Source: Syntrophaceae bacterium (GTDB taxonomy: Bacteria; Desulfobacterota; Syntrophia; Syntrophales; PHBD01). From it: a stretch of DNA of 64,000 nucleotides. The stretch covers positions 62,001-126,000 of the forward strand of contig JABLXX010000008.1 in assembly GCA_013177825.1 (NCBI GenBank), read 5' to 3'. The notes below the pieces were generated by a model. It saw only the letters and a program-made list of their open reading frames with translations. It had not been told where the DNA came from and did not search any database. The first letter of the stretch is position 1; each line of letters opens with the position of its first letter. This document shows positions 22,749 to 56,166 of the stretch, in pieces. The position numbers and the translations under genes are program-made.

Positions 22749-22838
22749 ATGTATTATGCGGAACACGTGAATGATGCTGACAGATATGACGCCTGCCTAA
22801 CCCTGCCATTGTGGTGACTAACATGGGCCGATGAATAA

Positions 22839-22869
22839 AAACCCCGCTTCCCGGACAGGTGCGGGGTTT
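22839..22869. terminator. GC-rich hairpin terminator
   Basis: AAACCCCGC pairs perfectly with GCGGGGTTT around a 13-nt loop, and the + strand continues CATTTAT. It closes the microprotein pair and separates it from the histidine kinase gene. Confidence 0.7.
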
Positions 22870-22983
22870 CATTTATGTCGAAAAAGCATACGCAGCAATG
22901 GAGCATGCTGCACTTCATAGATTGATGCGGACATACCATTTCACTGGCGGCAAAATTCCGCATGGATGGGGGGATGGCCGGAA

Positions 22984-25887
22984 ATGAAACACAGATTTAT
23001 TCTGGCGGCGATCATTATCACTGTTGGACTCAGCATCTATTTCTTCGCTTCATTTTATAACGATGCCAAACAGGAAGCGATTAAGAACGTCAATAACGAA
23101 CAATTCATTCAAGCCAGGCATGCCGCACATGCAATAGAAGACTTTTTTGACAATTGGACACGCATCTTTGTTTCAATGTCAAAAGCAAGGTCCATTGTAG
23201 ATTTCGATGAGACGGGCAAGAAATACTTTGAATTCCTATATGAAGCTAGTTCTCATAAAATTCGAGCGATTACTCGTGTGGATGCGGAAGGAAAGATTGT
23301 CTATACCTATCCGTTCAATGCTGCCGTCATCGGAAGAAATATTTCCCGGCAGAAGCATATCCGCGAGATTATGACCACCCACAAGCCTGTTATCAGCGAT
23401 GTATTCTTCGCCGTGCAGGGGTATGACACCGTTGCTCTCCATGTGCCCATTCTGCACAACAACACGTACAAGGGTTCGATCGGCATAACCATCAATTTCC
23501 AGGCACTGGCAAAACGCTACCTGGAGGACATAAAAATCGGGAATTCCGGTTATGCCTGGATGATCAGCAGGGACGGGACGGAGCTCTACTGTCCCGTCCC
23601 CGGGCACACGGGGCATTCCGTATTTGAGAACTGCAAGGATTTTCCCTCCATCCTGATCATGGCGGAGGACATGCTCAAAGGCCTTCAGGGGTCGACCACC
23701 TACACGTTTGATAAAATCCGCGGGAGTCAGGTGGAAAACGTAACGAAGCATGCCGTCTACATGCCCATCAAACTCGGGAATACATTCTGGTCCATTGTCG
23801 TCGCCTCGTCGGAAGACGAAATCATCGCCTCCCTGGAGGATTTCCGGAACAAGCTTTTCGTGGTCATCGGCCTGCTGCTGCTCGGCGGCATTCTGTTTTC
23901 CTATTACGGATTGAGGGCCTGGTTCTTCTTAGAGGAAGAAAAGAAGCGGCATCGTGCCGAAGAGGCATTGCGGGAGAGCGAAGACAAGTACCGCAGCCTG
24001 GCGGAAACGGCGAGCGATTTGATACTCACCATCGATTTCAATGGAATCATCACCTATGCCAATCGGGCAACGATACAACTGGCCGGGGGAAGGAACATTG
24101 TCGGGATGCGGGTGACGGACCTGATCCCCCCGGATACCCTGGCACCGCAAATGGAAATGCTGCGGGAACGAAGCCAGGGATATGAAGGAGTCCGGTCCTA
24201 TGAATGGACACTCCCCTTACCCGACCAGGCCCCCACCTCCATGTCGCTGGAGATCAAATCAGCCCTGTTGATCGATCAGGGAAAACCGTCGGGAGTCCTG
24301 ATCACGGCAAGGGACATTACGGCCCGCAAGCGAGCGGAGGAAGCGCTCCGGCAGAGCGAGAGAAACTTCCGGAATCTGACGGAGGCATCCACGGTCGGGA
24401 TTTCAATTACCGACGGAGAACGCTTCCTGTATTGCAATCCCGAGGTTCTGAGAATGTCGGGATACAGCGAAGAGGAATACTACTCCAAGCCGATCTGGGA
24501 TTTTGTCACCCCGGAGTCGCGGGATCTCATCATGCATCGGGGCAAGGATCGACTGGCAGGCAAAACGGTCCCCGCCAGTTATGAAATCCAGGTTCTGACC
24601 AAAGACGGCGGCATCAGGTGGGCGGAAGTCGGAGCGGCAACCATCGAATACAACGGCAAACCGGCTATTGTCTTTACCCAATACGACATCACGGACCGGA
24701 AAAACGCCGAGGCGGAACGAGAAGCCCTCCAGATGCGGCTGAACAGCGCCCGGAAGATGGAGGCACTCGGGCAGCTGGCCGGTGGAGTAGCCCATGACCT
24801 GAACAACATTCTGGGAATCATGAGCGGGTATTCGGAATTGCTGCTGCTGGAAATTCCGGAGGGGCAGCGGGCAAGGGAACATGTTGAGAAAATATTAAAG
24901 TCCACGGAGAAGGGGGCCAACATAATCCAGGACCTTCTCACCCTGGCCAGGCGCGGGGTGACCACCTCGGATGTGATCAATCTCAACAACATCGTCTCCG
25001 ATTTTCTCAAGACCCCGGTGTTCGAGAATGTGAAATTCTATCATCCCCGAGTGACCTTCAAGACAGAGTGCCAGGATCATCTGCTTAATATAAAAGGTTC
25101 CTCCGTCCATCTGGAAAAGACTTTGATGAACCTTGTCTCCAATGCCGCGGAATCCATTTCCGGGGAAGGAGAAGTCCTCATCAGAACGGAGAACCGTTAC
25201 GTCGACAAGGCAATCAAGGGCTATGATGAGGTTCGGGAGGGCGATTATGTCGTCCTGAGCGTATCCGATACGGGGCTGGGCATCCTTCCGGAGGATCGGG
25301 ATAAAATATTCGAACCCTTTTATACAAGGAAGAAGATGGGCAGAAGTGGGACCGGGTTGGGACTGGCGATCGTCTGGGGAACGGTAAAAGACCACAACGG
25401 GTATATTGATGTACGGAGCAAAATTGGAGAAGGAACCACGTTTACCCTTTACTTCCCGGTAACGCGGGAGGAGATGACCTCAACCCGGCAGTCAATTCCC
25501 ATGGAACGGTATATGGGGAACGGAGAATCGGTTCTGGTCGTCGATGACATTGCGGAACAGAGAGATATCGCCGCCGGGTTGCTTGCAAAGCTGGGGTATG
25601 AGGTATACACGGTGTCCAGCGGTGAAGCGGCGCTGACATACCTCGAGGGCAACAAGGCCGACATCCTGGTTCTGGACATGATCATGGATCCGGGCATAGA
25701 CGGCCTGGAGACCTACCAGAGGATTATCAGGATCAACCCGAAACAGAAGGCGATCATCGTCAGCGGATTTTCCGAGACGGATCGCGTCAGGGCGGCCCAG
25801 CAGCTGGGAGCGGGCGCTTACGTCAGGAAGCCCTATGTACTGGAACAGATCGGCCTCGCCATCCGGGACGAACTGGCCCGTTCATGA
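22984..25887 (+). CDS. Membrane hybrid sensor histidine kinase (Cache-PAS-PAS-HisKA-HATPase-REC)
   Basis: A 967-residue kinase. A transmembrane helix (~4-23) and a second one (~290-310) enclose a double-Cache extracellular sensor. Two PAS domains follow (~335-450 and ~455-575), then HisKA with H604 in GGVAHDLNN, an HATPase with SNAAESI (N box), DTGLGI and GTGLGLAIVWG, and a C-terminal receiver with phospho-acceptor D898 in VLDMIMD. GVAHDLNN is typical of kinases whose receiver is fused at the end. The start at 22984 begins the membrane helix; an ATG at 22966 is also possible. No response regulator lies next to it, so the output is unknown. Small-molecule sensing by Cache is inferred. Confidence 0.93.
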   Translation: MKHRFILAAIIITVGLSIYFFASFYNDAKQEAIKNVNNEQFIQARHAAHAIEDFFDNWTRIFVSMSKARSIVDFDETGKKYFEFLYEASSHKIRAITRVDAEGKIVYTYPFNAAVIGRNISRQKHIREIMTTHKPVISDVFFAVQGYDTVALHVPILHNNTYKGSIGITINFQALAKRYLEDIKIGNSGYAWMISRDGTELYCPVPGHTGHSVFENCKDFPSILIMAEDMLKGLQGSTTYTFDKIRGSQVENVTKHAVYMPIKLGNTFWSIVVASSEDEIIASLEDFRNKLFVVIGLLLLGGILFSYYGLRAWFFLEEEKKRHRAEEALRESEDKYRSLAETASDLILTIDFNGIITYANRATIQLAGGRNIVGMRVTDLIPPDTLAPQMEMLRERSQGYEGVRSYEWTLPLPDQAPTSMSLEIKSALLIDQGKPSGVLITARDITARKRAEEALRQSERNFRNLTEASTVGISITDGERFLYCNPEVLRMSGYSEEEYYSKPIWDFVTPESRDLIMHRGKDRLAGKTVPASYEIQVLTKDGGIRWAEVGAATIEYNGKPAIVFTQYDITDRKNAEAEREALQMRLNSARKMEALGQLAGGVAHDLNNILGIMSGYSELLLLEIPEGQRAREHVEKILKSTEKGANIIQDLLTLARRGVTTSDVINLNNIVSDFLKTPVFENVKFYHPRVTFKTECQDHLLNIKGSSVHLEKTLMNLVSNAAESISGEGEVLIRTENRYVDKAIKGYDEVREGDYVVLSVSDTGLGILPEDRDKIFEPFYTRKKMGRSGTGLGLAIVWGTVKDHNGYIDVRSKIGEGTTFTLYFPVTREEMTSTRQSIPMERYMGNGESVLVVDDIAEQRDIAAGLLAKLGYEVYTVSSGEAALTYLEGNKADILVLDMIMDPGIDGLETYQRIIRINPKQKAIIVSGFSETDRVRAAQQLGAGAYVRKPYVLEQIGLAIRDELARS

Positions 25888-34404: not shown

Positions 34405-35004
34405 GGCGCAAGCATTTTTTGTATACATTCCACCGGATCTTCATAAGCGAGCCGTGCCAGAACCGCTGAGCAGTATTTTAAAGTGGCGATCAAAAAAACG
34501 GGGGATGACATGCGCGTCCCCCGCCGTCACTACATCTTTGCCATGCCCCCATTGATGACCAACCGCATGGATGCCCACCCAAGAATCCAGACCTCATAAT
34601 ATGCTAACAATAATAATGCTTTACATTATGCCACAAATTTGTTTTTCATTTTAGCACTACTGCATGAACAGCAGTACGACATAAGAAGGGCGACAATCCT
34701 TCGGGTTCCAATTCATTCCGTTTCCAGCCTCCCGCACCTCACCTCTGCCGCCGCATCGATTGGCTCCATACCATCGGGCTATTCGTTCTGTAGGGCTTCT
34801 ATCGGCAACCATACCATCCAGCCATCGGACGCATTTACCGGAAAAAGCTTCCAGAGAAACCCGCTCACAGAAAGAATCTGAACCACAGGGATAACTCATG
34901 CCAAGTTGTTTTCAGCCGTAGTGACGAGGCAAAACAACAGGGTGCCACAGATCGTCTTCTTCAAATTATGTCCCGTTCATGCAGAGCAGAAAGGAGGTTC
35001 CAAA
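34405..35004. other. Non-coding stretch with minus-strand terminator
   Basis: GGGGGA / TCCCCC (34500-34522) followed on the minus strand by a run of seven T (34492-34498) is a good intrinsic terminator for a transcript coming from the right, but no minus-strand gene is obvious there. Small frames at 34657-34899 have no ribosome site or family motif. The stretch may be the scar of a lost gene. Confidence 0.45.
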
Positions 35005-43458: not shown

Positions 43459-44286
43459 TCAGCATATTTTTTCCAATAGTTTAATATTATGCATAACTTC
43501 GTATCTAAGTGAACGACAAAATCCTTCCAAACCAGGGAAAAGCGATTTTGTTGTTATATTCATTCTCTGAAGTCTTATATTTCCTTCTAAACGTAATGAC
43601 GATGGTATAATAATTTTTTTGCATGCTATTCTCTTAAGATTGTAATGCTTTAGAATTTCATTAAATGTTTCATAGTTATTACTTGGCACTAAAAAAAGCC
43701 CTTGCTGTGCTAATATTCTTTCAGTTTTTAGTGAAGGGTCAAAAGGAATAATGAAAGACCTATCTCCTTTACGATTAGCGAATACTTCTTTAGCGAAATC
43801 TTCTCCAGAGAAATATTCTTCGTCAAACTCTTTTAATATTTTGTGATTGAATGCAAAAACACAACAATCAGTGCTGCCCTTTTCTAGGGCGAAATACATT
43901 GCAATATAGGGCGATAGCGTCACATCAAGGAGCCTTGTCGGGGTACCATAATGCTGCATTATCGCATTCCATTCTAGACGATTTGTGTGTTTATCATTTA
44001 TTTCTGGGAGAGAATGTTTTAAATATAGATGTGCTGTTGATTGAAACTTTTCAAGAAGTATCTCCTCCCTTCTATCTTTAACTAGTTTTTGCCTTTTCCC
44101 TTTTTTCTTTTCAATTAAATCCTCTACTTCTTCCAGCATTCTGTATAAAGATGTTTTAAGTTCAAAAGAAGCATCATAATGGCCACGAAAGACCCATGTT
44201 CTAAAATCTAGTTCTCTTACTGCTTCGTCAAAGTCTTCCCATTTACAAATTTTAATTTCTTCATAACCTGATGATTTTTTTATCAT
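43459..44286 (-). CDS. FRG-domain protein
   Basis: A 275-residue protein with an FRG domain: WVFRGHYDASFELKTSLYRM near the N-terminus and MQHYGTPTRLLDVTLSPYIA in the middle, then AMYFALEKGS. The domain is named for the Phe-Arg-Gly seen at 33-35. It occurs in conflict or defence-type loci and has no proven reaction. There is no membrane segment. The KAP NTPase gene ends 61 bases upstream on the same strand, so the two form an operon and likely act together. AT-rich (~35% GC by eye). Confidence 0.88.
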   Translation of the reverse strand: MIKKSSGYEEIKICKWEDFDEAVRELDFRTWVFRGHYDASFELKTSLYRMLEEVEDLIEKKKGKRQKLVKDRREEILLEKFQSTAHLYLKHSLPEINDKHTNRLEWNAIMQHYGTPTRLLDVTLSPYIAMYFALEKGSTDCCVFAFNHKILKEFDEEYFSGEDFAKEVFANRKGDRSFIIPFDPSLKTERILAQQGLFLVPSNNYETFNEILKHYNLKRIACKKIIIPSSLRLEGNIRLQRMNITTKSLFPGLEGFCRSLRYEVMHNIKLLEKIC

Positions 44287-44347
44287 TATTATTTATCCTC
44301 AAGTAATTATACATTCTCAACAGCTGTTTATCGATCGTATCTTGTCG

Positions 44348-47059
44348 TCAACTGTCTCCTGTTGTATGTTTTGTGCTCATTTGATTTGATAAAACACTCT
44401 GAACATACTCGATATAATTCCTCTCTCTTTCATTAAATATTGAAGTATCAATTGTATTGGATAATATTTGATCTAGAATATCTCTTTTTTTTCCAAATAG
44501 GTCTTGTAATCTTTTCTCATTAATTGAATATGTTAATTCACCTCTGCCTGTGTTCAACTCATCGCAGATTAATGGTACTAACTGGGGAATAATAATCCGA
44601 CTATTTATTTTTGCTGATTCTAAGATAGTATTGACAAGCCAGTCCCATTCTGACGCATTAAATCCACTGCCACCATATTTTGTTTGACTAAAAAATATCA
44701 TCAAGTGATAAATACTATAAATATACACTTCATCAAGGGCTTTAATAAACACATTTAAATCTGATTCGTAACATTTCCTTGCTGCCTCAACAAATCTCTT
44801 ACGTAAGCTTATATGGATATTTGTTATATCAATATCGGTGCGGCTTCCTTTTGACCAATAATAGTACAACGAATTTGCGAGTCTTAGGCTAATAGGTAAA
44901 GCTTTTTCAATTTCTACAAGAATCCATTCATAATGATTTTTGGATGGATTATCCAATGATAGTCTCCATAATTCAAAAAAACCAAGATAACTATCAACAT
45001 CGAAGTTGCTATTTTTTGAATTCCTTATATTTTCGAATACTTCACTAGCCAATTCTCTAATATTGCCACCATCCAACAAATTTCCAAAATGCTCTATTTT
45101 TCGTGCAAAGCCATCTATATTAAATATTGCTTCAGAAAGATTAAGATTTTGATAAATGATTGTGCTTTTATTCTCTTTCCATGATTGAACTGCATGTAAA
45201 ATTGTCTGATCACGTAGTTCATCCATCGCTACCTCTTCTCTGTTTAACCTAACCCAGTAATCTGTGGGATCTGATTGTAGAACACCTTGGGGCACATTGT
45301 CTTGATAAAAATCATCTTCATTCCACCCTGGAAACAAGTAAATAATCAAATGCTTGAGCATTATTTTGTTCCAATCACACTGAATCTTTTCCCATTCCTT
45401 GTCTAGTACTTCGCGATTTTCTCCTTGTCTTTTCCTAGTGAATTCAGATGTGCTATCAGTATTAAAAGATCGAAGTAATCCGATATTTTGATTTATAAAC
45501 GAAAAGGCTTCGGGTGCAATTGTATATATTACTCTAGTTACAAATAAATCATCAAAATCAATTTCACCATGTAGGGATTGCCATGATTGTAACGAATGAC
45601 GTAATGTCGTTTTCAACATCCTAGGATTGTTGAGTAGTTTAGAAACCACAATTACAGGAGAATTCACTTCGCCGAACAAAGATGAGTGTTGGTACTCCCT
45701 GTGAGTCTTTTTAATTCCAAGATGTTGATCTCTCATTTCTCTCCTACGACAATCGATATCGCTCTCTATATAATCATCAATACATATATTTCTGAAATAT
45801 TTTATACAATCTAATACCTCGTTTCTTGCTAAAGCTGGGATGAACTCAATATGCTCACACACCCTAAACAATGAATTATTTTTGATACTACTTTGACTAA
45901 TAGCTAAAACAAAAGAAATATTATCGAGATCCTTTAAATTATCAAGAAGAGAGGTTATTTGTTCTATATAATTAGAACTCATTACATTGCGGTCAAGATC
46001 TTCTAAGAATATTACAACTCTCATACCGATACATGTAAGAACAAGATCCATTTTCCGAAGAATTTCTAGGGGCTCTTTCGCTTGATTTGACAATATAGCG
46101 ATTGATCTTAGCCATGAATATCCAGTATTTGATAGAGCATGTCGGTAGTCAGTTGGAATATATGATAGCCCTAGGCAATCTACTTTTGTTGACATTTCAA
46201 CTAATACACTTTGTAATATATGTTCTATAGCCGCATTTCTCTGTAATCCCCATCCACGAACATTACAGAACATTATATTCTCTTTATTAAAATAGTTTAT
46301 ATCAGAGCTTTGCGATCGCAAGTCTTCTTCAACCATGTTAATAATGCTACTCTTACCACATCCATATGAACCAACAATAGCAATTGTCTTTAAATTATTA
46401 TCTTGGAGCATTCTACTGATCCGTTTCGCAAATACCGATAAGCCAAAGATGTCTTCAGTGGATGTATTTATGGGTGTCTCTTTATTAATCCAACGAATGA
46501 AAGCAGGCTTATCATGAAGTATTGATCTATAATTATTCAGTAAATGCGAATTATAAATATTTTCAATACTCATAGATACTAATTTTTTGTGTGAAAAGAG
46601 CTTATCTAAAAAGCATGCCGTAATAATTCCAGGAACAAAAGAAATAATTGATGATCCTATTACGAACCATTCGAATGTGTATGTTTTCCAAAATATTGTT
46701 CTTCCCCAATAGTAAAGAATGCCTCCCAAAAATGCAAAGCACCATGTAGGTGGGTATAAAAACCTTATTTTAAATGACTTAAATATTTCTTTCGATAATA
46801 ATCGAAACCCACCGAGACGAATTATCACATACCATATTATAATTACTGACAAGAATTCGATAATGATTAAGGAAACAGAAAAAATATTAAAGGTCTCTGA
46901 TCGAGGAAACAAATTATATAGCTGTCTTGTCAATGTACCTATAAATGGATTTAAACTAATGAATAAAAGAGCCGTAATTACACTTAATACTATAAGATCT
47001 GCCCACCGTTTTATAATCAAAGTGTTTTGTCGAGACTCCAACCTAAGTTTCTTATTCAT
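44348..47059 (-). CDS. Membrane KAP-family P-loop NTPase
   Basis: A 903-residue protein. Four membrane helices lie in the first ~155 residues (~20-40, 57-80, 105-118, 131-151). The KAP NTPase domain has Walker A GSYGCGKSS (230-238) and Walker B VVIFLEDLDRN (~348-358), with RGW soon after the P-loop and ISFVLAISQS as sensor strand. The C-terminal ~500 residues are helical with no known domain. KAP proteins (named after Kidins220/ARMS and PifA) are known from membrane scaffolds and phage exclusion; PifA blocks T7. AT-rich. It is first of two genes with the FRG protein. Confidence 0.9.
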   Translation of the reverse strand: MNKKLRLESRQNTLIIKRWADLIVLSVITALLFISLNPFIGTLTRQLYNLFPRSETFNIFSVSLIIIEFLSVIIIWYVIIRLGGFRLLSKEIFKSFKIRFLYPPTWCFAFLGGILYYWGRTIFWKTYTFEWFVIGSSIISFVPGIITACFLDKLFSHKKLVSMSIENIYNSHLLNNYRSILHDKPAFIRWINKETPINTSTEDIFGLSVFAKRISRMLQDNNLKTIAIVGSYGCGKSSIINMVEEDLRSQSSDINYFNKENIMFCNVRGWGLQRNAAIEHILQSVLVEMSTKVDCLGLSYIPTDYRHALSNTGYSWLRSIAILSNQAKEPLEILRKMDLVLTCIGMRVVIFLEDLDRNVMSSNYIEQITSLLDNLKDLDNISFVLAISQSSIKNNSLFRVCEHIEFIPALARNEVLDCIKYFRNICIDDYIESDIDCRRREMRDQHLGIKKTHREYQHSSLFGEVNSPVIVVSKLLNNPRMLKTTLRHSLQSWQSLHGEIDFDDLFVTRVIYTIAPEAFSFINQNIGLLRSFNTDSTSEFTRKRQGENREVLDKEWEKIQCDWNKIMLKHLIIYLFPGWNEDDFYQDNVPQGVLQSDPTDYWVRLNREEVAMDELRDQTILHAVQSWKENKSTIIYQNLNLSEAIFNIDGFARKIEHFGNLLDGGNIRELASEVFENIRNSKNSNFDVDSYLGFFELWRLSLDNPSKNHYEWILVEIEKALPISLRLANSLYYYWSKGSRTDIDITNIHISLRKRFVEAARKCYESDLNVFIKALDEVYIYSIYHLMIFFSQTKYGGSGFNASEWDWLVNTILESAKINSRIIIPQLVPLICDELNTGRGELTYSINEKRLQDLFGKKRDILDQILSNTIDTSIFNERERNYIEYVQSVLSNQMSTKHTTGDS

Positions 47060-47185: not shown

Positions 47186-47320
47186 GAAACCCCACCTCTC
47201 ATCCAAGAAGTGGGGTTTCGTTTTGTCAGCTCATCTTTCTGTACCGGTTCTGCTGAAACGGTTTATGGATCTGGAACGTGTATCTTCCGGTCTTTCTGCT
47301 CCTGTGGTTCCACAAATTTG
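47186..47320 (-). ncRNA. Candidate structured small RNA or leader, copy A
   Basis: About 135 nt on the minus strand from just past a near-consensus -10 (TATAGT, 47327-47332) to a terminator-like hairpin (GAAACCCCAC / GTGGGGTTTC, 47186-47219). It folds into a 6-bp stem TGGAAC/GTTCCA around a loop with ACAGGAG and GAAGAT, then an ACCG/CGGT hairpin, then the terminator. The same elements occur in copy B at 55849. It lies after the acyl-CoA dehydrogenase gene stop and 127 bases before the KAP gene, so it is either a free RNA or the leader of the KAP operon. Confidence 0.6.
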
Positions 47321-47326
47321 GGGCAC

Positions 47327-47354
47327 ACTATATCGCCTGAAACGGAGAAGTCAA
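47327..47354 (-). promoter_or_regulatory. Sigma-70-type promoter of RNA copy A
   Basis: Minus strand TTGACT (47349-47354), a 16-base spacer and TATAGT (47327-47332). The spacer ends in CGA, which also ends that of copy B. Confidence 0.65.
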
Positions 47355-47553
47355 GCGTTTTGAGCGGCAACCTGATAATATCATGCTATTTCTAACCATA
47401 ACCATATAGGGATTCGCTTTATTAATTTGATTGAAATAATACCGGATTCAGCCTGTGGGAGTAGGAAGTAAGAAGATCAAGGACTGAGCCGACAGTTAGA
47501 ACGCTTTTGTCGGCCCAGCCCTTCAGGCAGGCTTCTGATCCTGGCTTCTTTAA

Positions 47554-49419
47554 CTAAACCGCAAACCCCTCGTCCGGGATGTCGATCGGGGAGAGGTCTT
47601 CGCTTTTGATGGCCTTCATGCCGGCGGCTACTTCCGGGAGGATGTGCTTGATGAAGTACCGGCAGGCGGCGATTTTCCCAGTGTAGAAGGCCGCTTCCGA
47701 GTCTTCCGAAGAAAGCGCTTTAAGAGCCGCCTTGTCGTCCGCATCGACTCCCTTCTGCGCGCAAATCTTCTCCAGAGTCTCCCGGGCCACGCGGGCCTGC
47801 CAGAGCAGGAGCCATCCGAAGACGGCCTTTCCCATCATGGTGAGGAACGTGTAGGCGTTCGAGACGGGGATCATGAATTTCCCGCTGGAGGCGCTGCCCG
47901 CGAAGAACATGCCGGCCTCGGCCAGGGTGTTGGCGGCCTCCTGCACGTCGGCGGCCAGGTCTCCCACCCCTTTTGCCGTAGCGCACTCCTGGATCGTCTT
48001 CTGCATCTCCCCCAGGAGCTTCATGAAATATAGGCCCTTCTTCATGCCGAGCTTCCGCCCCACCAGGTCGAGGGCCTGGATGCCGTTGGCGCCCTCGTAG
48101 ATGGAGGTCGGCTTCACATCGCGCAGGAACTGCTCGACGGGATACTCGTTGCAGCAGCCGTACCCGCCGTAGACCTGGATGGCCGTCTCGCAGACCCGGA
48201 AGGCCAGGTCCGAGCAGTAGGCCTTGCAGACGGGTGTCAGCACCTCGATGATGCCGCGATAGGTGTCTTTCACGGCGGGGTCGGCGGTGCTCTCCATGAC
48301 GTCGACGCACCAGGCCGTGTAATAGGAGAGCGCCCGCATACCTTCCACATGGGCCTTCATCCACAGGAGCATCCGCCGGACGTCGGGATGGCGGATGATC
48401 GGCACCCTCGGGGCCAGGGGGTTTTTCATCTCCTCCAATGCGGACCCCTGGAGGCGCTCCTTGGCATAGGCGAGGGCGTGCAGGTAGGCGATGGAGGCGC
48501 TGCCCAGGGACTCGACGGCCACGAAGATCCGGGCCTCGTTCATCATCTGGAACATGATCCGGATCCCCTGCCGCTCCTCCCCCAGGAGCTCGGCGTAGCA
48601 GGCCCCGTTCTCGCCGAAGCTCATCTGGCAGGTGGCGCTCCCGTTCAGGCCGATCTTATGCTCGATGCCGGGGATGGTGTAGTCGTTTCGCCTCCCCAGG
48701 GAGCCGTCTTCGTTGACGAGGAACTTGGGCACCAGGAAGATGGAGATGCCCTCCGTCCCCGCGGGATCGCCCTCGATCCGCGCCAGCACGGGGCTGATGA
48801 CGTTTTCCGTCAGGTCCTGGTCCCCGCCGGTGATGAACTGCTTCGTCCCTTCCAGGAGGAACGTGCCATCGGGCTGCCGGATGGCCTTCGTCCGAATGTT
48901 GCTGAGGTCGGTCCCGGCGCCGGGCTCCGTCAGGCACATGTTGCCGCCCCACACGCATTCATACATCTTGTCCATGTACTTCCGCTTCTGGGCTTCCGTT
49001 CCATACGCCTCGATCAGGTGGGCGGCCCCGGCGGTCAGGAAGGCGTAGCCGACGAGGCTGAAGTTGTGCATGAACCACTCCTCGGTCATCATGCCGATGA
49101 TGAGGGGGAATCCCTGCCCGCCGGCCTCGGGGGACACGCTGACGGTCGTCCAGCCGCCTTCCCGGAAGATGCGGAAGCTGCGGTGGAAGCACTTCGGAAC
49201 GAGGACGTTGCCGTTCTCGACACGGCACCCCTCCCGGTCGCCCTCGACCAGGACCGGGAAGACGACCTCCTCCGCCATCTTCCTCGCCCCGTCGAGGACC
49301 ATGTCGCACATGTCGCGGGAATAGTCGCCGAAGTGCTCCATCTTGAACAGCTCCTCAATCTTGAGCATTTCATACATCACGAATTTCTGGTCTCTTTCGT
49401 CGCATATCAGGCTGCCCAT
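47554..49419 (-). CDS. Long-type acyl-CoA dehydrogenase (C-terminal extension)
   Basis: A 621-residue dehydrogenase of the long class with a C-terminal ~150-residue domain, as in DmdC or AidB-like enzymes. FAD and substrate motifs are CLTEPGAGTDLSN and GTKQFITGGDQD; the base is the Glu of SIYEGANGIQ, at the classic position. VYGGYGCCNEYPVEQFLRD is the flavin loop. It would oxidise an acyl- or aryl-CoA. AAGGAG lies 11 bases before the ATG. It follows the acyl-CoA ligase gene by 53 bases and ends the first fatty-acid operon. Confidence 0.94.
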   Translation of the reverse strand: MGSLICDERDQKFVMYEMLKIEELFKMEHFGDYSRDMCDMVLDGARKMAEEVVFPVLVEGDREGCRVENGNVLVPKCFHRSFRIFREGGWTTVSVSPEAGGQGFPLIIGMMTEEWFMHNFSLVGYAFLTAGAAHLIEAYGTEAQKRKYMDKMYECVWGGNMCLTEPGAGTDLSNIRTKAIRQPDGTFLLEGTKQFITGGDQDLTENVISPVLARIEGDPAGTEGISIFLVPKFLVNEDGSLGRRNDYTIPGIEHKIGLNGSATCQMSFGENGACYAELLGEERQGIRIMFQMMNEARIFVAVESLGSASIAYLHALAYAKERLQGSALEEMKNPLAPRVPIIRHPDVRRMLLWMKAHVEGMRALSYYTAWCVDVMESTADPAVKDTYRGIIEVLTPVCKAYCSDLAFRVCETAIQVYGGYGCCNEYPVEQFLRDVKPTSIYEGANGIQALDLVGRKLGMKKGLYFMKLLGEMQKTIQECATAKGVGDLAADVQEAANTLAEAGMFFAGSASSGKFMIPVSNAYTFLTMMGKAVFGWLLLWQARVARETLEKICAQKGVDADDKAALKALSSEDSEAAFYTGKIAACRYFIKHILPEVAAGMKAIKSEDLSPIDIPDEGFAV

Positions 49420-49472
49420 CGTCTTTGATTCTCCTTGTTTTTTTCGTTCTGGAAGGTCCTGGTCGATCCGCC

Positions 49473-51149
49473 CTACATCATGGTCCTCAGCTCCCGCTTG
49501 AGGATCTTGCCGACCCCGCTCAGGGGAAGCTGGTCCATGAACTGGATGACCTTCGGCACCTTGTACGGCGCCACGTTCTCCTTCAGGAAGTTCAGGATCT
49601 TCTCCTTCTCGGCCTCGCTCTTCTCGATGCCGGGCTTCAGCATGACCGCCAGGGCGACGCGCTCGGACCCCGGGCGCTCCGGGTCGGGGATGCCGATGGC
49701 CGCGGCCATCTCGACGTCGGGATGCAGGGCCAGCAGATCGTCCAGCTCCCGGGTGAAGACCTTGAAGCCGGAGACGATGACCATGTCCTTCACGCGGTCG
49801 ACGATGTAGAAATACCCGTCCTCGTCCATGGTCGCGATGTCTCCCGTGTATATCCAGCCGTCCCGGAGGGTGCGGGCGGTTTCTTCCGGATTCATGTAGT
49901 AGCCCGTCATGATCTGGGGGCCGCGGATGATGATTTCCCCCGGCTCACCCGGCTTTGCGAGCTGTCCCGTCTCGGGATCGACGAGCTTGAACTCCGTGTC
50001 TGACATGGGGATGCCGATGGAGGAGGGCTTCTTCTTCCCGTAGCGGGGATTGAAGCAGGTGACCATCGATTCGGTCATCCCGTAGAGCTCGATCAGCTTG
50101 TTCTCCCCGACGATGTTCTCCAGCTCCCGGATCTTCTCTCCCGGGAACGGGGCCGCCACGCTCAGGCAGAACTTCAGGCCGCTCATGTCGACCTTCCTGA
50201 ACTCGGGATTCTTGATGAGCTCGAAATAGACCGTGGGAACGTGAGTCATGAACGTGGGCCTGTAAGCCTTCAGCGCCTGGATCATGAAATTGGAGTCCCG
50301 GGGATTGGGCACGCAGACCTGCGTGACGCCCGAGGTGATCGAGACGCCGCCTAAGGTCAGGCCGGCGATGTGGAACAGGGGGAAGGCCGACAGGGCGATA
50401 TCGTCGGGCCGGATGTCGATCCACGTCAGGAGCTGCTGGCGGTTGTACATGTAGCTGCGCTGGGTCAGGACGGCACCCCTGGACTGGCCCGTGGTCCCGC
50501 CGGTGTACATCATGAAGATGGTGTCGTCCATGGTGCGCCGGACGGCCACCGGGTCGGCCGGCATCGAATCGACGGCCTCCATGAACCGGACGACCGTCTT
50601 GCCCGGCAGGGGGCCGATCGGCGCCGTGGGGATCTTCTTCAGGAGCTTCCCCAGCACCTTCTTCACGCCGGGCAGGAAATCGGCGACCTCCGTGACGAGG
50701 ACGCTCTTGAACGGGGCCTTGTCGGCCACCTCCGCGACCTTGTCGAACAGGAGGTCCACGGTGATCACGGCCTTGGCCCGCGAATCGTTCAGGTGGTGCT
50801 CCATCTCGTGGGGCGTCAGGAGCGGGCTCAGGCCCGTGGAGACGCAGCCCGCCTTCTGCACGGCGATGATGGCGATGAAATGGGCCGGGAGGTTCGGCAG
50901 GTGAAGGCCCACGACGTCGTCGGGCTTCAGGCCGATCTTCTGGAAATACCGGGCGAGACGGTTGGACAGGAGGTCGATCTCGCGATAGGTGATGGATTTC
51001 CCCATGTAATGCAGGGCCGTCTTGTCCGGGTACCGGTCGGCCACGACCCTGAACTGCTCTGCGAATGTCCTGTTCTCGTACGGGAGCTCCGGCGGGACAT
51101 TCCTGTCATAACTCCTCAACCATGGCTTTTCCGCGTAAACATCACTCAT
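49473..51149 (-). CDS. Long-chain acyl-CoA ligase (AMP-forming)
   Basis: A 558-residue ANL-superfamily enzyme that activates a carboxylic acid with ATP and CoA. The phosphate loop is YTGGTTGQSRGAVLT, then YGMTES, YTGD, and near the end the catalytic Lys of SGVGKILKRELR. The second ATG (51149) has AAGGAGG six bases upstream; the first ATG directly abuts it. Substrate chain length is inferred from the overall type only. It lies between the enoyl-CoA hydratase gene and the dehydrogenase gene in one operon. Confidence 0.95.
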   Translation of the reverse strand: MSDVYAEKPWLRSYDRNVPPELPYENRTFAEQFRVVADRYPDKTALHYMGKSITYREIDLLSNRLARYFQKIGLKPDDVVGLHLPNLPAHFIAIIAVQKAGCVSTGLSPLLTPHEMEHHLNDSRAKAVITVDLLFDKVAEVADKAPFKSVLVTEVADFLPGVKKVLGKLLKKIPTAPIGPLPGKTVVRFMEAVDSMPADPVAVRRTMDDTIFMMYTGGTTGQSRGAVLTQRSYMYNRQQLLTWIDIRPDDIALSAFPLFHIAGLTLGGVSITSGVTQVCVPNPRDSNFMIQALKAYRPTFMTHVPTVYFELIKNPEFRKVDMSGLKFCLSVAAPFPGEKIRELENIVGENKLIELYGMTESMVTCFNPRYGKKKPSSIGIPMSDTEFKLVDPETGQLAKPGEPGEIIIRGPQIMTGYYMNPEETARTLRDGWIYTGDIATMDEDGYFYIVDRVKDMVIVSGFKVFTRELDDLLALHPDVEMAAAIGIPDPERPGSERVALAVMLKPGIEKSEAEKEKILNFLKENVAPYKVPKVIQFMDQLPLSGVGKILKRELRTMM

Positions 51150-51244
51150 AGACATCCTCCTTCAAAATGTTCATGGCAATGCCCGGCGGACGAAAACAAC
51201 TCTGTCTTCGTTCGACGCTCGCTGTATACGTTATCGATCTGGGA

Positions 51245-52012
51245 TTATTTTTTGCTCCTTGACTGGATGAATTTGATCACGGCCTCCTGGTGCTCGGTGC
51301 TCCGGATCCGCTCCGTCTGCCTCTCGGCCTCCCAGGCGAGGACCTCCTCCAGGGACATGTCGTGGCTCTTGTCCAGCCCATTCTTGATCAGGGACATGGC
51401 GGTGGGGGCTTTCTGCGCCAGCGTCTCGGCCAGCGCGGTAACCGCGCCGTCGAGCTCCTCGTCCGGCAGGGACTTGTAGATCAGGCCGATCGAGGCGGCG
51501 TCCCGGCCGCTGAGCCTGTCCCCCAGCATGGCCAGCTCCCGGGCCTTGGCCAGCCCGACCAGCCGGGGCAGGAAATACGTCCCTCCCAGGTCCGTCATCA
51601 GCCCGATGTGAATGAACGGCTGGATGAACTTCGCCTCGTGGGCGGCTAGGACGAAGTCGCCGGACAGGGCGAGGTTGGCGCCGCCACCCACGGCCATCCC
51701 CCTCACCTTGCTGATGACGGGCTGCCTCAACTCCCGGACGGTCTGCACCCAGCGGCCGAGGCGCTTCATGATCTCGTGCAGGTCGTCGTGGCTCAGCGAG
51801 TAGTTCCGCGGCGAGAGCTCCGCCCCCGACGAGAAGTTGCCGCCGGCGCCCTGCAGGACGAGCACGTTCACCTCCTCGTCCCTGCCGATGCGGTCGAGGG
51901 CGTCCTGGAAGTCGCCGAGCATCTCTTCGCTGAAGGCGTTCATCACGTCGGGACGGTTCAGGGTCAGGGTGCAGATACGGTTCCGGACATCGACAAGGAC
52001 GGTCTTTTCCAT
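51245..52012 (-). CDS. Enoyl-CoA hydratase/isomerase family protein
   Basis: A 255-residue crotonase-fold enzyme. The oxyanion loops are GNFSSGAELS and GMAVGGGANLAL. The usual first catalytic Glu position reads KFIQPFIHIG, and the second reads TDLGGTYFLPRLVG, with Asp; this pattern is nearer PaaG-type isomerases/hydratases than classic crotonase. It would act on an enoyl-CoA made by the dehydrogenase encoded in the same operon. It is the first gene after a shared control region with the divergent TetR gene. Confidence 0.92.
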   Translation of the reverse strand: MEKTVLVDVRNRICTLTLNRPDVMNAFSEEMLGDFQDALDRIGRDEEVNVLVLQGAGGNFSSGAELSPRNYSLSHDDLHEIMKRLGRWVQTVRELRQPVISKVRGMAVGGGANLALSGDFVLAAHEAKFIQPFIHIGLMTDLGGTYFLPRLVGLAKARELAMLGDRLSGRDAASIGLIYKSLPDEELDGAVTALAETLAQKAPTAMSLIKNGLDKSHDMSLEEVLAWEAERQTERIRSTEHQEAVIKFIQSRSKK

Positions 52013-52066
52013 GGGATCTCCCCCCTTTTTGAAATGAATGGACAGTCCGGCCTGCTGAAATGCAGA

Positions 52067-52095
52067 TTGACAGGCGTGTAACCAGTGGTTACAGT
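52067..52095 (+). promoter_or_regulatory. tetR promoter with embedded operator
   Basis: TTGACA (52067-52072), 17 bases, TACAGT (52090-52095) on the + strand. The spacer and -10 contain the perfect palindrome GTAACCA-G-TGGTTAC (52078-52092). A repressor bound there would block polymerase, so this is probably the TetR protein's own site and may also act on the divergent acyl-CoA operon. Confidence 0.85.
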
Positions 52096-52260
52096 AGAGA
52101 ACACGCGACAGGAAAGCAAGCCTTTTTCATCACCGGAAGCCGTCTTTTCCGGGATTCATGACGGGGAACGATTCCTTCCCGGTGGACAAATCGTCCGTCG
52201 TCGCGATATCTTGACAGCGGTTTTGTTTCCCGACGGCACGGCCGGGAAGAAAGGAACCCC

Positions 52261-52872
52261 ATGGAAGAGAACGCCACGTTTGCCGATCTCAAGAGCGAGG
52301 CGATCCTCGCCCGCCGGGAGCTGATTGTCGAGGCCGCGGAGCGCGTGTTCGCCGTCAAGCCGTTCCACAAGGTGAGCATCCGGGACATCGCCCAGGAGGC
52401 GGGCATCTCGCACGCCTTGATCTACCGGTATTTCCCGGACCAGCAGTCGATCTTCGTGGAGGCCTTCATCCGGGGCGCCGAGGAAATCGGCGGGGTCATC
52501 GAGCGGCTCATCGACGAGAGCGAGACGCCGGACATCGCGAAGATCAGCGACGCCTTTCTCTCCTACTGCATCGACAACGACCAGTACCTGAGAATGCTGA
52601 CCCACTTCATGCTCGACGGCGAGCTTTCCCCGGAAAAAGTCGAGAAGATCAACGCGGCGGAGCGCCGGTTCTTCGACCAGTTCGACAGGCTCTTCCGTAA
52701 GATGAAGAAACCGGAGCCCGTGCGGCCCCTGTCCCATGCCTTCTTTGCGGCCCTGAACGGGGTCCTGATCACCTTCCGGAACTACCCCGGCCGCACGCCC
52801 GACGAAGTGAAACAGCACATGCTGAACGTCGGCCGGATGATCGACCTTGGTTTCAGCAATATCCGGACATGA
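52261..52872 (+). CDS. TetR-family transcriptional regulator
   Basis: A 203-residue repressor. The helix-turn-helix is VSIRDIAQEAGISHALIYRY, and the C-terminal domain would bind a ligand, possibly an acyl-CoA. It is divergent from the enoyl-CoA hydratase - ligase - dehydrogenase operon. A perfect palindrome inside its own promoter (52078-52092) suggests control of both directions. GGAA just before the ATG at 52261 is a short ribosome site. Confidence 0.94.
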   Translation: MEENATFADLKSEAILARRELIVEAAERVFAVKPFHKVSIRDIAQEAGISHALIYRYFPDQQSIFVEAFIRGAEEIGGVIERLIDESETPDIAKISDAFLSYCIDNDQYLRMLTHFMLDGELSPEKVEKINAAERRFFDQFDRLFRKMKKPEPVRPLSHAFFAALNGVLITFRNYPGRTPDEVKQHMLNVGRMIDLGFSNIRT

Positions 52873-53041
52873 GCACGGAAGGCTTCAAATAGGAAGGATT
52901 GGGAAGGAAGGACTAACCGTCAATTCCTGCGTCTGTGACGGGATGGCGTTCGGGATGCCGCACGAGCAGGACAATCAGGCTTATTGAAGAGGATAGAATC
53001 GGCACCATATTCATTCCTTATGAACGATCCCCGCACAGCGG

Positions 53042-53845
53042 TTATCGGAGGTCAGCCTTTACCATTTTCGAAACGAGATCATCAACCGCGGCCCGCAGTG
53101 AATAAGAGGCCTCTTTATACATATTGCTGGAATATTCTTTCTTTATGTCCTTGAATTTGTTGCGGACCTCTCCACTCCACACAATTCGATCAGACTTCAG
53201 ATCCATCAGCTTGATGTCCGTAAGAGCCGTATTCCCTTCAATTTTAAATGATAGTGCGTTATTTTGATCGGCCACAATGGCACCAGCAATCGCTCCGGCC
53301 ACTGCACCGCCGATGGCGCCTCCGACAACGCCACCGACGACGCCTATCATCAGGGCGGTCCCAGAGCTACCGGTATTTTCCAGCGCTTTATAAAAACCAT
53401 AGAAATGCTTGATCTTTCCCATCAATACGTAATCATATTCTTTTCCCAAGTCGGATTTATCTTTTTTCGAATAATCCGCAACAGACACATCGACAAATTC
53501 CGTTTTTATGAATAGTTTTTTCTCTCTTACCTGATCCGCTATTGATCGTGACAATTGTTGCGCAACATTATAAACTTTCTTTTCTCCTCTCTTATTTAAG
53601 TAAGCCCATTCTTCCGTATAAAAATTGGCGTCTTCGATCAGGTTCTCTAATCTCGATTTGGCATATCTTTCGATATCAGGTCTTACATCATCAAAGACAA
53701 TGACAGCCACTTTCTTATCTATGGTGATAAATTCCTTTTGATTTAAAATGGGAGCCTGAACCGTGCCTTGATCGGACGCGAACGATAATTGGACTGTCAT
53801 CAGGACAACCAGCAAAGAAGATAATATGGTGTTTTTTCGTCCCAT
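53042..53845 (-). CDS. Exported glycine-zipper protein
   Basis: A 267-residue exported protein with a signal peptide (ILSSLLVVLMTVQLSFASD). A glycine zipper with about eight GxxxG steps lies near residues 170-195 (GVVGGVVGGAIGGAVAGAIA), a segment that can insert in the outer membrane. The rest is mixed alpha/beta, and the N-terminal part (KVAVIVFDDVRPDIERYAKS) resembles CsgG-like or LpoB-like strands. It starts three bases before the end of the next gene upstream, so it is in the same operon as the lipoproteins at 53849 and 54398. Function unknown. Confidence 0.7.
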   Translation of the reverse strand: MGRKNTILSSLLVVLMTVQLSFASDQGTVQAPILNQKEFITIDKKVAVIVFDDVRPDIERYAKSRLENLIEDANFYTEEWAYLNKRGEKKVYNVAQQLSRSIADQVREKKLFIKTEFVDVSVADYSKKDKSDLGKEYDYVLMGKIKHFYGFYKALENTGSSGTALMIGVVGGVVGGAIGGAVAGAIAGAIVADQNNALSFKIEGNTALTDIKLMDLKSDRIVWSGEVRNKFKDIKKEYSSNMYKEASYSLRAAVDDLVSKMVKADLR

Positions 53846-53848
53846 GAT

Positions 53849-54343
53849 TCAGTCTTCTCCCATCTTCACTGTTTCTTTCTGCCCTCCTATCATAAACCAC
53901 ACTTGATCGAATAATTTATCCTCGTAATAAACCTCTATTTTCCATTTTCCCTGTTTTGCTTGTGCGGCACTGCCCTTGATCAGCAACTCTGCTATGATCG
54001 CCTCCGAAATCCAGAAACTTTTTATTTCTTGTTCCTTGTAAATGCTTTTGTCGGGGGCAAACCATTTGGCCGTCATGGTTGGAGGTGAGAAGAAACTGCT
54101 TGCAATAAACTCACACCACCATACGGCTTTTTCTTCCGATGGATCGAAGAAATTCTTTATCCCGGTGAGTTTCAACGGTCCCGGTAAAATAATATTCCCC
54201 TGCGGGATCGCCGACGTGGCCATGCCGGAGTCTCTTATTCTTGAATCCTGAGCGGAATTGCCTCGCGGAAACGTTGCGCATCCATTCATGACCGTGAAAC
54301 CGACAATCATGCCGATTAAGATGAACATTCTGAGAGTTTTCAT
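53849..54343 (-). CDS. Lipoprotein, unknown function
   Basis: A 164-residue lipoprotein (MKTLRMFILIGMIVGFTVMNGC, lipobox MNGC). The mature part is beta-rich with aromatic residues (MTAKWFAPDKSIYKEQEIKS; KWKIEVYYEDKLFDQVWFMI). The family is not recognised. It lies between the glycine-zipper gene (3 bases) and the beta-propeller lipoprotein gene (54 bases) on one strand, so it probably belongs to an envelope operon. Confidence 0.7.
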   Translation of the reverse strand: MKTLRMFILIGMIVGFTVMNGCATFPRGNSAQDSRIRDSGMATSAIPQGNIILPGPLKLTGIKNFFDPSEEKAVWWCEFIASSFFSPPTMTAKWFAPDKSIYKEQEIKSFWISEAIIAELLIKGSAAQAKQGKWKIEVYYEDKLFDQVWFMIGGQKETVKMGED

Positions 54344-54397
54344 GTCGGCCCTTCCTGATGAATTTTGTGGACAATGGATCCCTCTTATCCGGTTTCA

Positions 54398-55831
54398 TCA
54401 CGGAGAACGATTGATTCCAAGATCCCGGACTTGCAATATCTTCTTTTCAATTTTCATGGCGTGCAACTCGACCGGCTTCGGAGTGATGGCTGCATTTTCT
54501 TCTGAAAGTTGAAACGGGCTTTGAGAAACCTTTTGCTTCAATGAGTCGGGGCGGGCATCCTTCAGGGGGTTCCAAAGCAGAAGATAAAAATTTGTTGTTT
54601 CCTTCGATAAATCGTAATCACTGAACAGGAAATACCTGCCCTGCGATTTCACCGCCGACCTTACTCCAACGGTTGGCTTCTCCGGCGATATGCATGATTT
54701 TTCATTGCCATCCTCATCAATCAGGAAAGCAAAGTAATTTACTGGTTTCTTGTAACCTATAAGATAGCCCCATACACCGTCACCAGTGACTCCGGCGATG
54801 AGAAACTGTTGATCGTATGCGCTCACGATGACCCTTGGATAAGTGATCTTGTTCATGTTGTACTGGCGGCTCCACAAGATGTTCCCCTGGGACGTGAACC
54901 TGGATACCCCCGCATTGGCCTGTCCACTTCCCGTTATGCTCACAACATTTGCAACGGTGGCGATAATCCTTCCTTTATTGTCGATCACTAAGCTTTGCGG
55001 CCAGATACGCTTCGTATCCGGGCTTTTGAGAGTTTTCGCCCATATTGGCTTCCCTTCGAAATCTGTAAGGAATAAACCGAATTTCTCCGTTGCACTGAAA
55101 AGAACGGCCAAGTTTCGATCCTGGGTTTCCGTTACCCGGAATTGATCCATTACTGATCCAGTTGAAAGATGATAACAGTTTGCCCAAAGCAGATCGCCTT
55201 TTTCAGACAACTTAAAAAGCAATGGGCCGCCTTTATTTTTATCCTTACATCGGGGAGAACTACCGGAAAAGATATATCCTTTATCGGCGGTTTGAACGGC
55301 ATTGTTGAGATGGAAATCAAATCCACTCATATAGTAATCAATAACCGTAGCCCATTGGATGTCGCCCGTGGAGTCGGTCTTGATGATCAGGGGATACTGC
55401 TGTTTGTCCGTTGATTTGAGAGGAGTAAAAAGCATGCTCTTGCTCAAGCCTACGAGGAGAAATCCGCCATCCGAGGCGGCAACGGCGAAAAGTGCACCAT
55501 CCGCACCACTGCCATCGTACGTTTTCGCCCAGATAACCTTCTGGTCCGCTGAAATCTTCACAGCCAGGTAGTCCATAGACCAGCCGAAACTTCGCACGGT
55601 ATCACCGAAGAGCAGACAGGCTCCTTCTTCCGTGCAGGCAATGCTCATCCCGGAATCAATCCCGTTTCCGCCATAGAGGAACGCTTGAACGCTTTGATCC
55701 GGTTGACCCGGAGCCGAAGCCGACAGCGATTTCTGACGAATGCTATCGCTTCCCGGAGGAAGCGTCGTCGCACACCCGAGAAACAGCAGGAGAGCGATGG
55801 ACCAGGTAAACATGGCGTAGAATCGTCTCAT
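54398..55831 (-). CDS. Lipoprotein with beta-propeller-like repeats
   Basis: A 477-residue lipoprotein with signal FTWSIALLLFLGC. The mature chain repeats a pattern like ADQKVIWAKTYDGSGADGAL and GNILWSRQYN ('W-A/S-K/R-x-Y') at about seven places, as in propeller blades of the PQQ or SBBP type. AAGGA is two bases before the ATG at 55831; a second ATG at 55846 would also fit. An intrinsic terminator with eight T ends only 17 bases before the start, so the transcript from RNA copy B may be controlled at that point. It is first of three envelope genes. Confidence 0.72.
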   Translation of the reverse strand: MRRFYAMFTWSIALLLFLGCATTLPPGSDSIRQKSLSASAPGQPDQSVQAFLYGGNGIDSGMSIACTEEGACLLFGDTVRSFGWSMDYLAVKISADQKVIWAKTYDGSGADGALFAVAASDGGFLLVGLSKSMLFTPLKSTDKQQYPLIIKTDSTGDIQWATVIDYYMSGFDFHLNNAVQTADKGYIFSGSSPRCKDKNKGGPLLFKLSEKGDLLWANCYHLSTGSVMDQFRVTETQDRNLAVLFSATEKFGLFLTDFEGKPIWAKTLKSPDTKRIWPQSLVIDNKGRIIATVANVVSITGSGQANAGVSRFTSQGNILWSRQYNMNKITYPRVIVSAYDQQFLIAGVTGDGVWGYLIGYKKPVNYFAFLIDEDGNEKSCISPEKPTVGVRSAVKSQGRYFLFSDYDLSKETTNFYLLLWNPLKDARPDSLKQKVSQSPFQLSEENAAITPKPVELHAMKIEKKILQVRDLGINRSP

Positions 55832-55848
55832 TTCCTTGCCTTTCATGT

Positions 55849-55980
55849 AAAAAAAACCCGCCTTCCTTGAAAGAAGCCGGGGTTGAATTGGTAGGTTCGT
55901 TGTTTTTCATACCGTTGCCTCAGAAACGGTTCACGATTCCTGGAAATCTTCTATTTAACTCCTGTCATTCCCAAAAAATT
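55849..55980 (-). ncRNA. Candidate structured small RNA or leader, copy B
   Basis: About 130 nt on the minus strand from ~55980 to a terminator with eight T (55849-55884). It shares with copy A the loop motifs ACAGGAG and GAAGAT, the TTCCAG block and AACCGTTTC. Stem 1 is TGGGAAT/ATTTCCA here and TGGAAC/GTTCCA in copy A, so pairing is kept while bases change; stem 2 is ACCGTT/AACGGT. The terminator is 17 bases before the lipoprotein start, so this may be an attenuator leader of that gene or a free RNA. Confidence 0.65.
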
Positions 55981-55985
55981 GCGTC

Positions 55986-56013
55986 ACTATATCGTCCGAG
56001 GCGGAATTGTCAA
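55986..56013 (-). promoter_or_regulatory. Sigma-70-type promoter of RNA copy B
   Basis: Minus strand TTGACA (56008-56013), 16 bases, TATAGT (55986-55991), a near-consensus promoter. It is the closest match to consensus I found on the minus strand. Confidence 0.75.
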
Positions 56014-56166
56014 GTCTATTTACGACAACATCTCAATATTATGTACTTTTTGAATAATGATGCGCTGGATTCATGCTAAAAAGGCAGGGCCGGGTGCTCC
56101 GCTTGGAAATTTCACGGAACACCCGGAGTGGGGGGATACTGTTTTAATGCTTCTGGGGGGCTGTTC

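Follow-up and report, generated by a model that had tools for sequence, protein, structure and literature searches.

Two related units, designated u1 and u2, were analysed in a 64,000-nt stretch of a Syntrophaceae genome (the window; positions 62001-126000 of host contig C8). With a probability of slightly over one half, they are proposed to encode leader RNAs, that is, transcription attenuators in which translation initiation at a mini open reading frame (mini-ORF) would decide whether the gene behind is read through. The RNA family to which they belong most likely consists of attenuator-type leaders in an unusually compact form, a reading adopted because of the fixed spacing between start codon and terminator and because of the genes behind the units. 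In five of the six copies identified (u1, a, b, d and e) the distance from an ATG to the first C of the terminator stem is 18-19 nt (28 nt in u2), and a co-directional gene follows the terminator in all six.

Copies of the units within the genus

Both units were sited on the minus strand, at 47354-47186 (u1) and 56013-55849 (u2), where the initial annotation had placed them (coordinates of u1, u2 and a third unit are positions in the window), and each lies 3' of an acyl-CoA dehydrogenase gene and 5' of a minus-strand gene. They follow one plan, consisting of an upstream box, a TTGAC promoter with a 16-bp spacer, a predicted transcript of ~130 nt, a hairpin and a terminator, and their alignment has in common TTGAC, CCG, CGATATAGTG, ACAGGAG, AACCGTTTC...CGGTA and a CCCC...TTCT terminator. 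The TTGACA/T hexamer, the spacer ending in CGA, TATAGTG, ACAGGAG, the ACCG...CGGT hairpin and the terminator described in that annotation were all confirmed in u1 and u2, while GAAGAT, also listed there, is present in u1, u2 and a and absent from b, d and e. The upstream box, the start codon ahead of the terminator and a third unit built in the same way (22823-22870, plus strand) were not part of that annotation. When folding was compared with that of shuffled sequences, z was -3.05 for u1 and -0.29 for u2, the latter being no better than shuffled.

The host genome (G000) was compared with a sister genome (G001), the only other genome of the genus compared, and six copies were identified: u1, u2 and d in the host and b, a and e in the sister genome. 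The promoter pattern derived from u1 and u2 matched only these two of 149 genomes, at two sites each, and the sister-genome sites carry the whole unit. Copy a aligned with u1 at 73% identity over 154 bases (E 1.7e-10). A DNA search with u1 alone did not find u2 at E 0.001; with u2 as query, the match at E 9.4e-4 is copy a, and those at E 0.006 and above were dismissed as chance. Model R1 was built from four copies (u1, u2, a and b) and model R2 from all six, so that the scores of included copies hold by construction. In 155 genomes of the order R1 scored its four included copies at 108.7-133.5 bits, followed by a locus in a genome of another genus (G062; 25.4 bits) and by host copy d (24.8 bits), which was accepted on inspection since upstream box, promoter and terminator are present. 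Copy e, not listed by R1, was found at E 5e-25 with an nhmmer profile of five copies (d included, e left out). R2 gave the six copies 123-148 bits, and no other site in the two genomes exceeded 23.0. Judged by these comparisons, the copies are a real RNA family of their own, homologous within the genus, as had been claimed for u1 and u2, and the four further homologues all lie in the host or the sister genome.

Beyond the genus, R1 gave no strong match in the 153 other genomes of the order, the best other match of R2 in 395 genomes of the phylum scored 23.2 bits, and 28 weak R1 loci rescored with R2 reached at most 14.3 bits. Because the score of the G062 locus is above that of the genuine copy d, R1 bits by themselves do not rule out distant members in the order, and distant copies may be missed because only 23 (R1) or 6 (R2) candidates were scored per genome after filters. 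A promoter-pattern scan of wider genome contigs gave 12 stretches, of which R1 matched only two, both from the sister genome; pattern scans of viral sequences gave 13 loci, none matched by R2, and plasmid and phage searches gave no match. No match at the Rfam gathering score was obtained in the window, 20 loci or four 20-kb stretches, only weak chance rows being returned below it. Candidate c (host C8:50403-50511, minus strand) scored 23.0 bits, about the same as an unrelated match (23.2), and was excluded from all copy counts; it shares the promoter pattern, has a GGAAACACCGGAAC stretch, is without a clear terminator and may be a decayed copy. On contig C17 of G062 a promoter, TTGACAATTCCGTTTCAGTCGGTATAGTT, closely resembles that of u1 and u2, spacer included, with no terminator unit after it.

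Copies u1 and b are orthologous, both standing behind the same acyl-CoA dehydrogenase gene (96.3% identity). Identity between them was 72.6% in the spacer before the box, 100% in the 36 bases before the -35, 96.6% in the promoter, 78% in the 5' part of the RNA, 90% in the hairpin, 76.5% in the linker and 97% in the terminator, and fell to 28% after the terminator. A box of ~20 bp lies upstream of the -35 in five of the six copies; copy a is without it, and its promoter overlaps the end of the preceding gene. The box pattern (up to three mismatches) has three sites in the host and three in the sister genome, five of the six at RNA copies; the shared box probably binds an activator. A match with three mismatches, remote from any RNA copy, is found at C58:104666-104685 in the sister genome.

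The terminator stem covaries, with four pairs changed on both sides among the six copies. The first stem, which had been described as covarying, did not hold up: it is lost in copy b, and the share of cells that pair in four copies is 62.5%, as compared with 63.8% in shuffles, with a covariation score of 0.111 against 0.127. A possible alternative GGAG/UUCC stem was noted by eye. The likeness to CsrA targets seen in the initial annotation was also not supported. GGAG occurs at the same position in five of the six copies (GGGG in e) and u1 has four GGA, as CsrA/RsmA sponge RNAs might; the other GGA, on inspection of the alignments by eye, are not common to the copies, and PF02599 had no match in the host (completeness 100; the control search was positive in 3 of 14 reference genomes; the sister genome was not searched), so that a sponge role is regarded as extremely unlikely.

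A somewhat unlikely explanation, though one to be taken seriously, is that the units are free-standing small RNAs (sRNAs) of ~130 nt acting in trans by pairing or protein binding, with their true 3' end at the terminator and a common activator at the box. They have their own promoter and terminator, their box, promoter and terminator are 97-100% identical between species despite an exchanged gene behind u1/b, and they are clustered, with three copies within about 38 kb in the host and 29 kb in the sister genome; the case is strongest for u1/b. Against it, Hfq was not found in either of the two genomes (ProQ was not searched for) and CsrA was not found in the host, the 5' stem tested is not conserved, and the fixed start-codon distance and the ORFs ending at the start of the next gene are left unexplained. 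The initial annotation had left the choice between an attenuator class and a new family of sRNAs. The units do form a family of their own; the attenuator half is favoured by spacing and genes behind, and the sRNA half is kept as a rival.

Start codons and terminators

In copies a and e the mini-ORF crosses the terminator and ends in an ATGA overlapping an in-frame start of the next gene, which has a Shine-Dalgarno motif (these starts were chosen by eye, and earlier in-frame starts exist); that of copy d ends 10 nt before the start of the next gene. Behind copy b the terminator is separated from the next gene by 36 nt (to the first ATG) or 60 nt (to an ATG with a Shine-Dalgarno motif), a gap that is tight for another promoter. 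A further sister-genome unit, reached through a 12.5-bit R2 match, has a mini-ORF MEELRKPRF at -18 preceded by GGTGAT, and 36 nt separate its terminator from a PAS gene; its peptide resembles MEELRKPHF and MEEFRKPRF of f30 genomes (family names such as f30 are working labels). The third unit in the window scored 18.8 bits with R2 and encodes MGR at -19, with its gene about 95 nt behind.

The same start-codon/terminator plan is shown by R2 matches, mainly to the terminator, in other Desulfobacterota. As R2 contains the ATG position, a terminator-only pattern was used for an independent count; it was drawn from known units, and one terminator was counted on both strands. It gave 37 sites in 14 of 395 genomes of the phylum (none with the reversed control), in families f30, f40, f53, f59 and f103 and not in the host genome. 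At positions -22 to -16 a start codon was ATG at 29 of the 37 sites and GTG at four. The seven positions together hold 30 ATGs, where 2.9 would be expected from the other 93 positions; this expectation covers ATG only. The 18 sites that R2 had already listed had 15 ATG, one GTG and two with neither, and the 19 sites new to the pattern had 14, three and two, respectively. By upstream sequence the sites fall into 23 clusters; a start codon is present at these positions in 19 of them, ATG in 17. Other terminator-like hairpins in the same loci, used as a control, had an ATG in 4 of 22 cases (Fisher P = 9e-6 against 29/37, sites being treated as independent though many are related). A Shine-Dalgarno-like motif, by a permissive list, accompanies 31 of the 33 start codons.

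The 33 mini-ORFs stop 1-11 nt before the stem in 22 cases (MD four times; MVRRF, MVWKFN, MAQRK and others) and run into it in 11, and the idea of a non-stop peptide was dropped because of these 22; no single-codon runs were seen by eye. Among the 32 sites with at least 500 nt downstream the longer open frame is on the same strand at 25, and a same-strand ORF of at least 90 aa begins within 300 nt at 26 of the 37 sites. Promoter-like sites scoring 9 or more were observed upstream of 20 of the 37 sites, against 7 downstream.

Around the start codon of the MEELRKP group a pairing of UCUUCCA with UGGAGGA is predicted, with one pair changed on both sides, and the peptide may be under selection. The prediction for the MVRRF group is limited to a four-pair CCUU stem ahead of the start codon, in which no pair is compensated. 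Support from these structures is weak. That the start codon stands in or beside predicted hairpins differing between subgroups might point to ligand- or protein-controlled, riboswitch-like leaders in which the start codon is accessory. This was considered improbable: there is no Rfam match, no conserved aptamer-like core was seen across copies, and the variety of genes behind is too great for a single metabolite. In other Desulfobacterota families, chiefly f40 and f30, dispersed units of closely related sequence (MVRRF, MVWKFN, MD, MEELRKPHF) precede genes that are unrelated to one another, which looks as though the cassette itself were spreading.

Genes behind the units

Coordinates of the features in the window are given in Table 1. 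Within the genus, copy a is followed by a GAF-sigma-54 activator, e by a PAS kinase with receiver and d by a PAS protein (first 458 aa examined). As to whether homologues precede particular gene families, those of the genus stand before PAS kinases, defence genes and a sigma-54 activator, and elsewhere the genes are more mixed. Of 26 downstream ORFs in other families, 19 were scanned against Pfam; 12 reached the cut-off (two cyclases, two PAS proteins, an HTH-plus-N6-methylase protein, a WCX protein, an acyltransferase, a 4Fe-4S protein, a short-chain dehydrogenase, GYD, DUF4384 and DUF6282) and seven had no match or one below it. Signalling is prominent but not universal among the genes behind.

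Synteny between host and sister genome breaks off at the u1/b terminator and is restored from a Fic gene onward. Between these points the host has a KAP NTPase and an FRG gene (PADLOC PDC-S15 and partial PifA; window 43459-47059), and the sister genome has a DRT system (DnaG-like, RT UG6 and nitrilase; L090 10701-15954), so that the site is, on gene content, a defence-gene exchange site. A block made up of u2 and three genes that have no Pfam family (482, 164 and 267 aa; about 52874-56086) is likewise missing from the corresponding position in the sister genome. Both breaks would suit an RNA gene that is chiefly a recombination or insertion site, with cargo exchanged directly behind its terminator. 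This explanation was judged very improbable, since no direct repeat common to both borders was found in a repeat search of three cargo blocks, no integrase was found among ten cargo proteins scanned, d and e lie within nearly unbroken synteny, and promoter and box would be left unexplained.

Table 1. Positions of unit parts and following genes in the 64,000-nt window
Feature	Position	Strand	Basis or remark
u1 upstream box CATGATATTATCAGGTTGCC	47366..47385	-	3' edge 11 bp before -35; 36/36 bases before -35 same in copy b
u1 promoter TTGACT-16-TATAGT(G)	47326..47354	-	pattern match, cross-species identity
u1 hairpin ACCG...CGGT, directly before mini-ORF	47243..47262	-	folding; 27/30 bases identical between species
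u1 mini-ORF ATG AGC TGA (MS)	47226..47234	-	start 19 nt before terminator stem; MSR at same place in copy b
u1 intrinsic terminator GAAACCCC...GGGGTTTC	47186..47219	-	folding, conservation, stem covariation
First gene behind u1: KAP NTPase (PADLOC partial PifA match)	44348..47059	-	PADLOC
Second gene behind u1: FRG-domain gene	43459..44286	-	PADLOC PDC-S15
u2 upstream box CATAATATTGAGATGTTGTC	56024..56043	-	box pattern scan
u2 promoter TTGACA-16-TATAGT(G)	55985..56013	-	promoter pattern
u2 hairpin ACCGTT...AACGGT	55911..55930	-	folding
u2 mini-ORF of 55 codons; start codon 28 nt before stem	55743..55910	-	crosses terminator, enters next gene out of frame
u2 intrinsic terminator	55849..55884	-	folding
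Gene behind u2: lipoprotein-like by eye (LLLFLGCATT), without Pfam family	54398..55846	-	Pfam scan
Third unit mini-ORF ATG GGC CGA TGA	22823..22834	+	start 19 nt before stem; GGTGA upstream
Third unit terminator AACCCCGC...GCGGGGTTTC	22840..22870	+	profile/R2 searches
Gene behind third unit: Cache-PAS-histidine kinase-receiver hybrid	22966..25887	+	domain scan

In addition, a terminator-like hairpin is present at window position 34525 (minus strand), with a short ORF (MAKM) that starts 19 nt before the stem and is without a clear Shine-Dalgarno.

Proposed mechanism and related systems

An E. coli terminator placed 5 bp after a stop codon drops from about 90% to under 10% efficiency, and one beyond about 27 nt from the stop codon is free of the effect of the ribosome (PMC4824070). 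Given the spacing between mini-ORF and terminator, a ribosome could likewise block the terminator here. In the proposed mechanism transcription would start at the unit's own sigma-70-type promoter, preceded by the shared box with its probable activator, and would yield a leader of ~110-130 nt ending at the intrinsic terminator unless read through into the gene behind. The start codon, with a weak to moderate Shine-Dalgarno, would be in or beside a hairpin, 16-22 nt before the stem in nearly all units (u2, 28), and the mini-ORF of a few codons would stop at the foot of the stem or enter it. A ribosome on the mini-ORF would cover the 5' arm of the terminator and allow readthrough, and the terminator would close when there is no translation. 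The rate of translation initiation would in this way gate signalling genes as well as accessory or defence genes. As signals, the availability of ribosomes, inhibitors of initiation or any factor that opens the hairpin could be considered.

Several observations weigh against ribosome-gated attenuation. No antiterminator structure was supported by covariation in the alignments tested. The u2 start, at -28, is outside the usual spacing, and the u1/b mini-ORFs stop after two or three codons and have only GGU as Shine-Dalgarno; u1/b and u2 may be degenerate or act as sRNAs. The u1/b leader was kept while the gene behind it was exchanged, which suits a free sRNA too. Among the 37 terminator-pattern sites four have no start codon at -22 to -16, 11 have no same-strand ORF of the size and distance given above (some for want of sequence), and the promoter score was above that of nine in ten shuffles at only 17; the longer open frame is on the opposite strand at 7 of 32 sites. 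A script-based set of 29 terminator-like hairpins in C8 and C35 stretches had 12 ATGs at -22 to -16 against 3.5 expected; three of these are a, b and d, and only one of the other nine has a Shine-Dalgarno-like motif, leaving an unexplained excess. The genus family and the units of other families may, moreover, only share a ground plan rather than be homologous.

In the pyrBI attenuator of E. coli the leader peptide is encoded by 44 codons, and pausing is sensitive to UTP. This attenuator resembles the present units in that its leader ORF overlaps or abuts an intrinsic terminator and a nearby ribosome prevents termination (PMC4824070). The units described here differ in being mostly of 2-10 codons and in having no known pause site or nucleotide signal. 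Gram-positive antibiotic-resistance attenuators (for example bmrBCD, PMC4191407, and vmlR, PMC9226507) likewise have a short upstream ORF (uORF) before a terminator and a regulated gene, and in ribosome-mediated resistance attenuators a stalled ribosome favours an antiterminator (PMC12218461); here, in contrast, no alternative pairing is supported, and the genes concerned include kinases, cyclases and defence genes. In the Sinorhizobium meliloti DUF1127 uORF, initiation at a uORF with a ribosome-binding site predicted in a hairpin also controls downstream transcription, but that system is presumably Rho-dependent, has no intrinsic terminator and a 29-aa uORF, and its translation favours termination (PMC12218461). 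The Streptococcus fthC uORF motif shares a hairpin, a Shine-Dalgarno-like stretch with AUG and a terminator-like stem before a gene, but is confined to one gene family and one genus and has an extra stop-codon hairpin between start codon and terminator (PMC11109978). The same source gives eight uORF candidates, including ilvB and fthC, and other RNA motifs in Geobacter and Desulfobacteraceae. The main text of the attenuator survey of Naville and Gautheret (2010) has no words beginning with Geobacter, Desulf or Syntroph (PMC2965389), and no report of such a class in Desulfobacterota was found in the open-access literature among the matches listed. Ribosome-mediated attenuators are known already, and the compact Desulfobacterota form is most likely a new variant.

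A broader proposal is advanced tentatively and is considered rather doubtful: that in several Desulfobacterota families dispersed cassettes, each made up of promoter, start-codon hairpin, mini-ORF mostly of 2-10 codons and terminator, would couple accessory genes (above all sensor kinases, cyclases and exchangeable defence systems) to translation initiation, gating them when ribosomes are scarce or blocked, for example under phage attack, with different defence systems slotted behind one switch at the u1 site. If this holds, signalling and defence genes of several Desulfobacterota families would be preceded by a simple switch that senses translation and has next to no coding content, and it would be testable whether one initiating ribosome at a fixed distance alone decides the fate of an intrinsic terminator. 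The defence genes concerned (the DRT system and KAP/FRG) would then be ones whose expression may respond to translation arrest.

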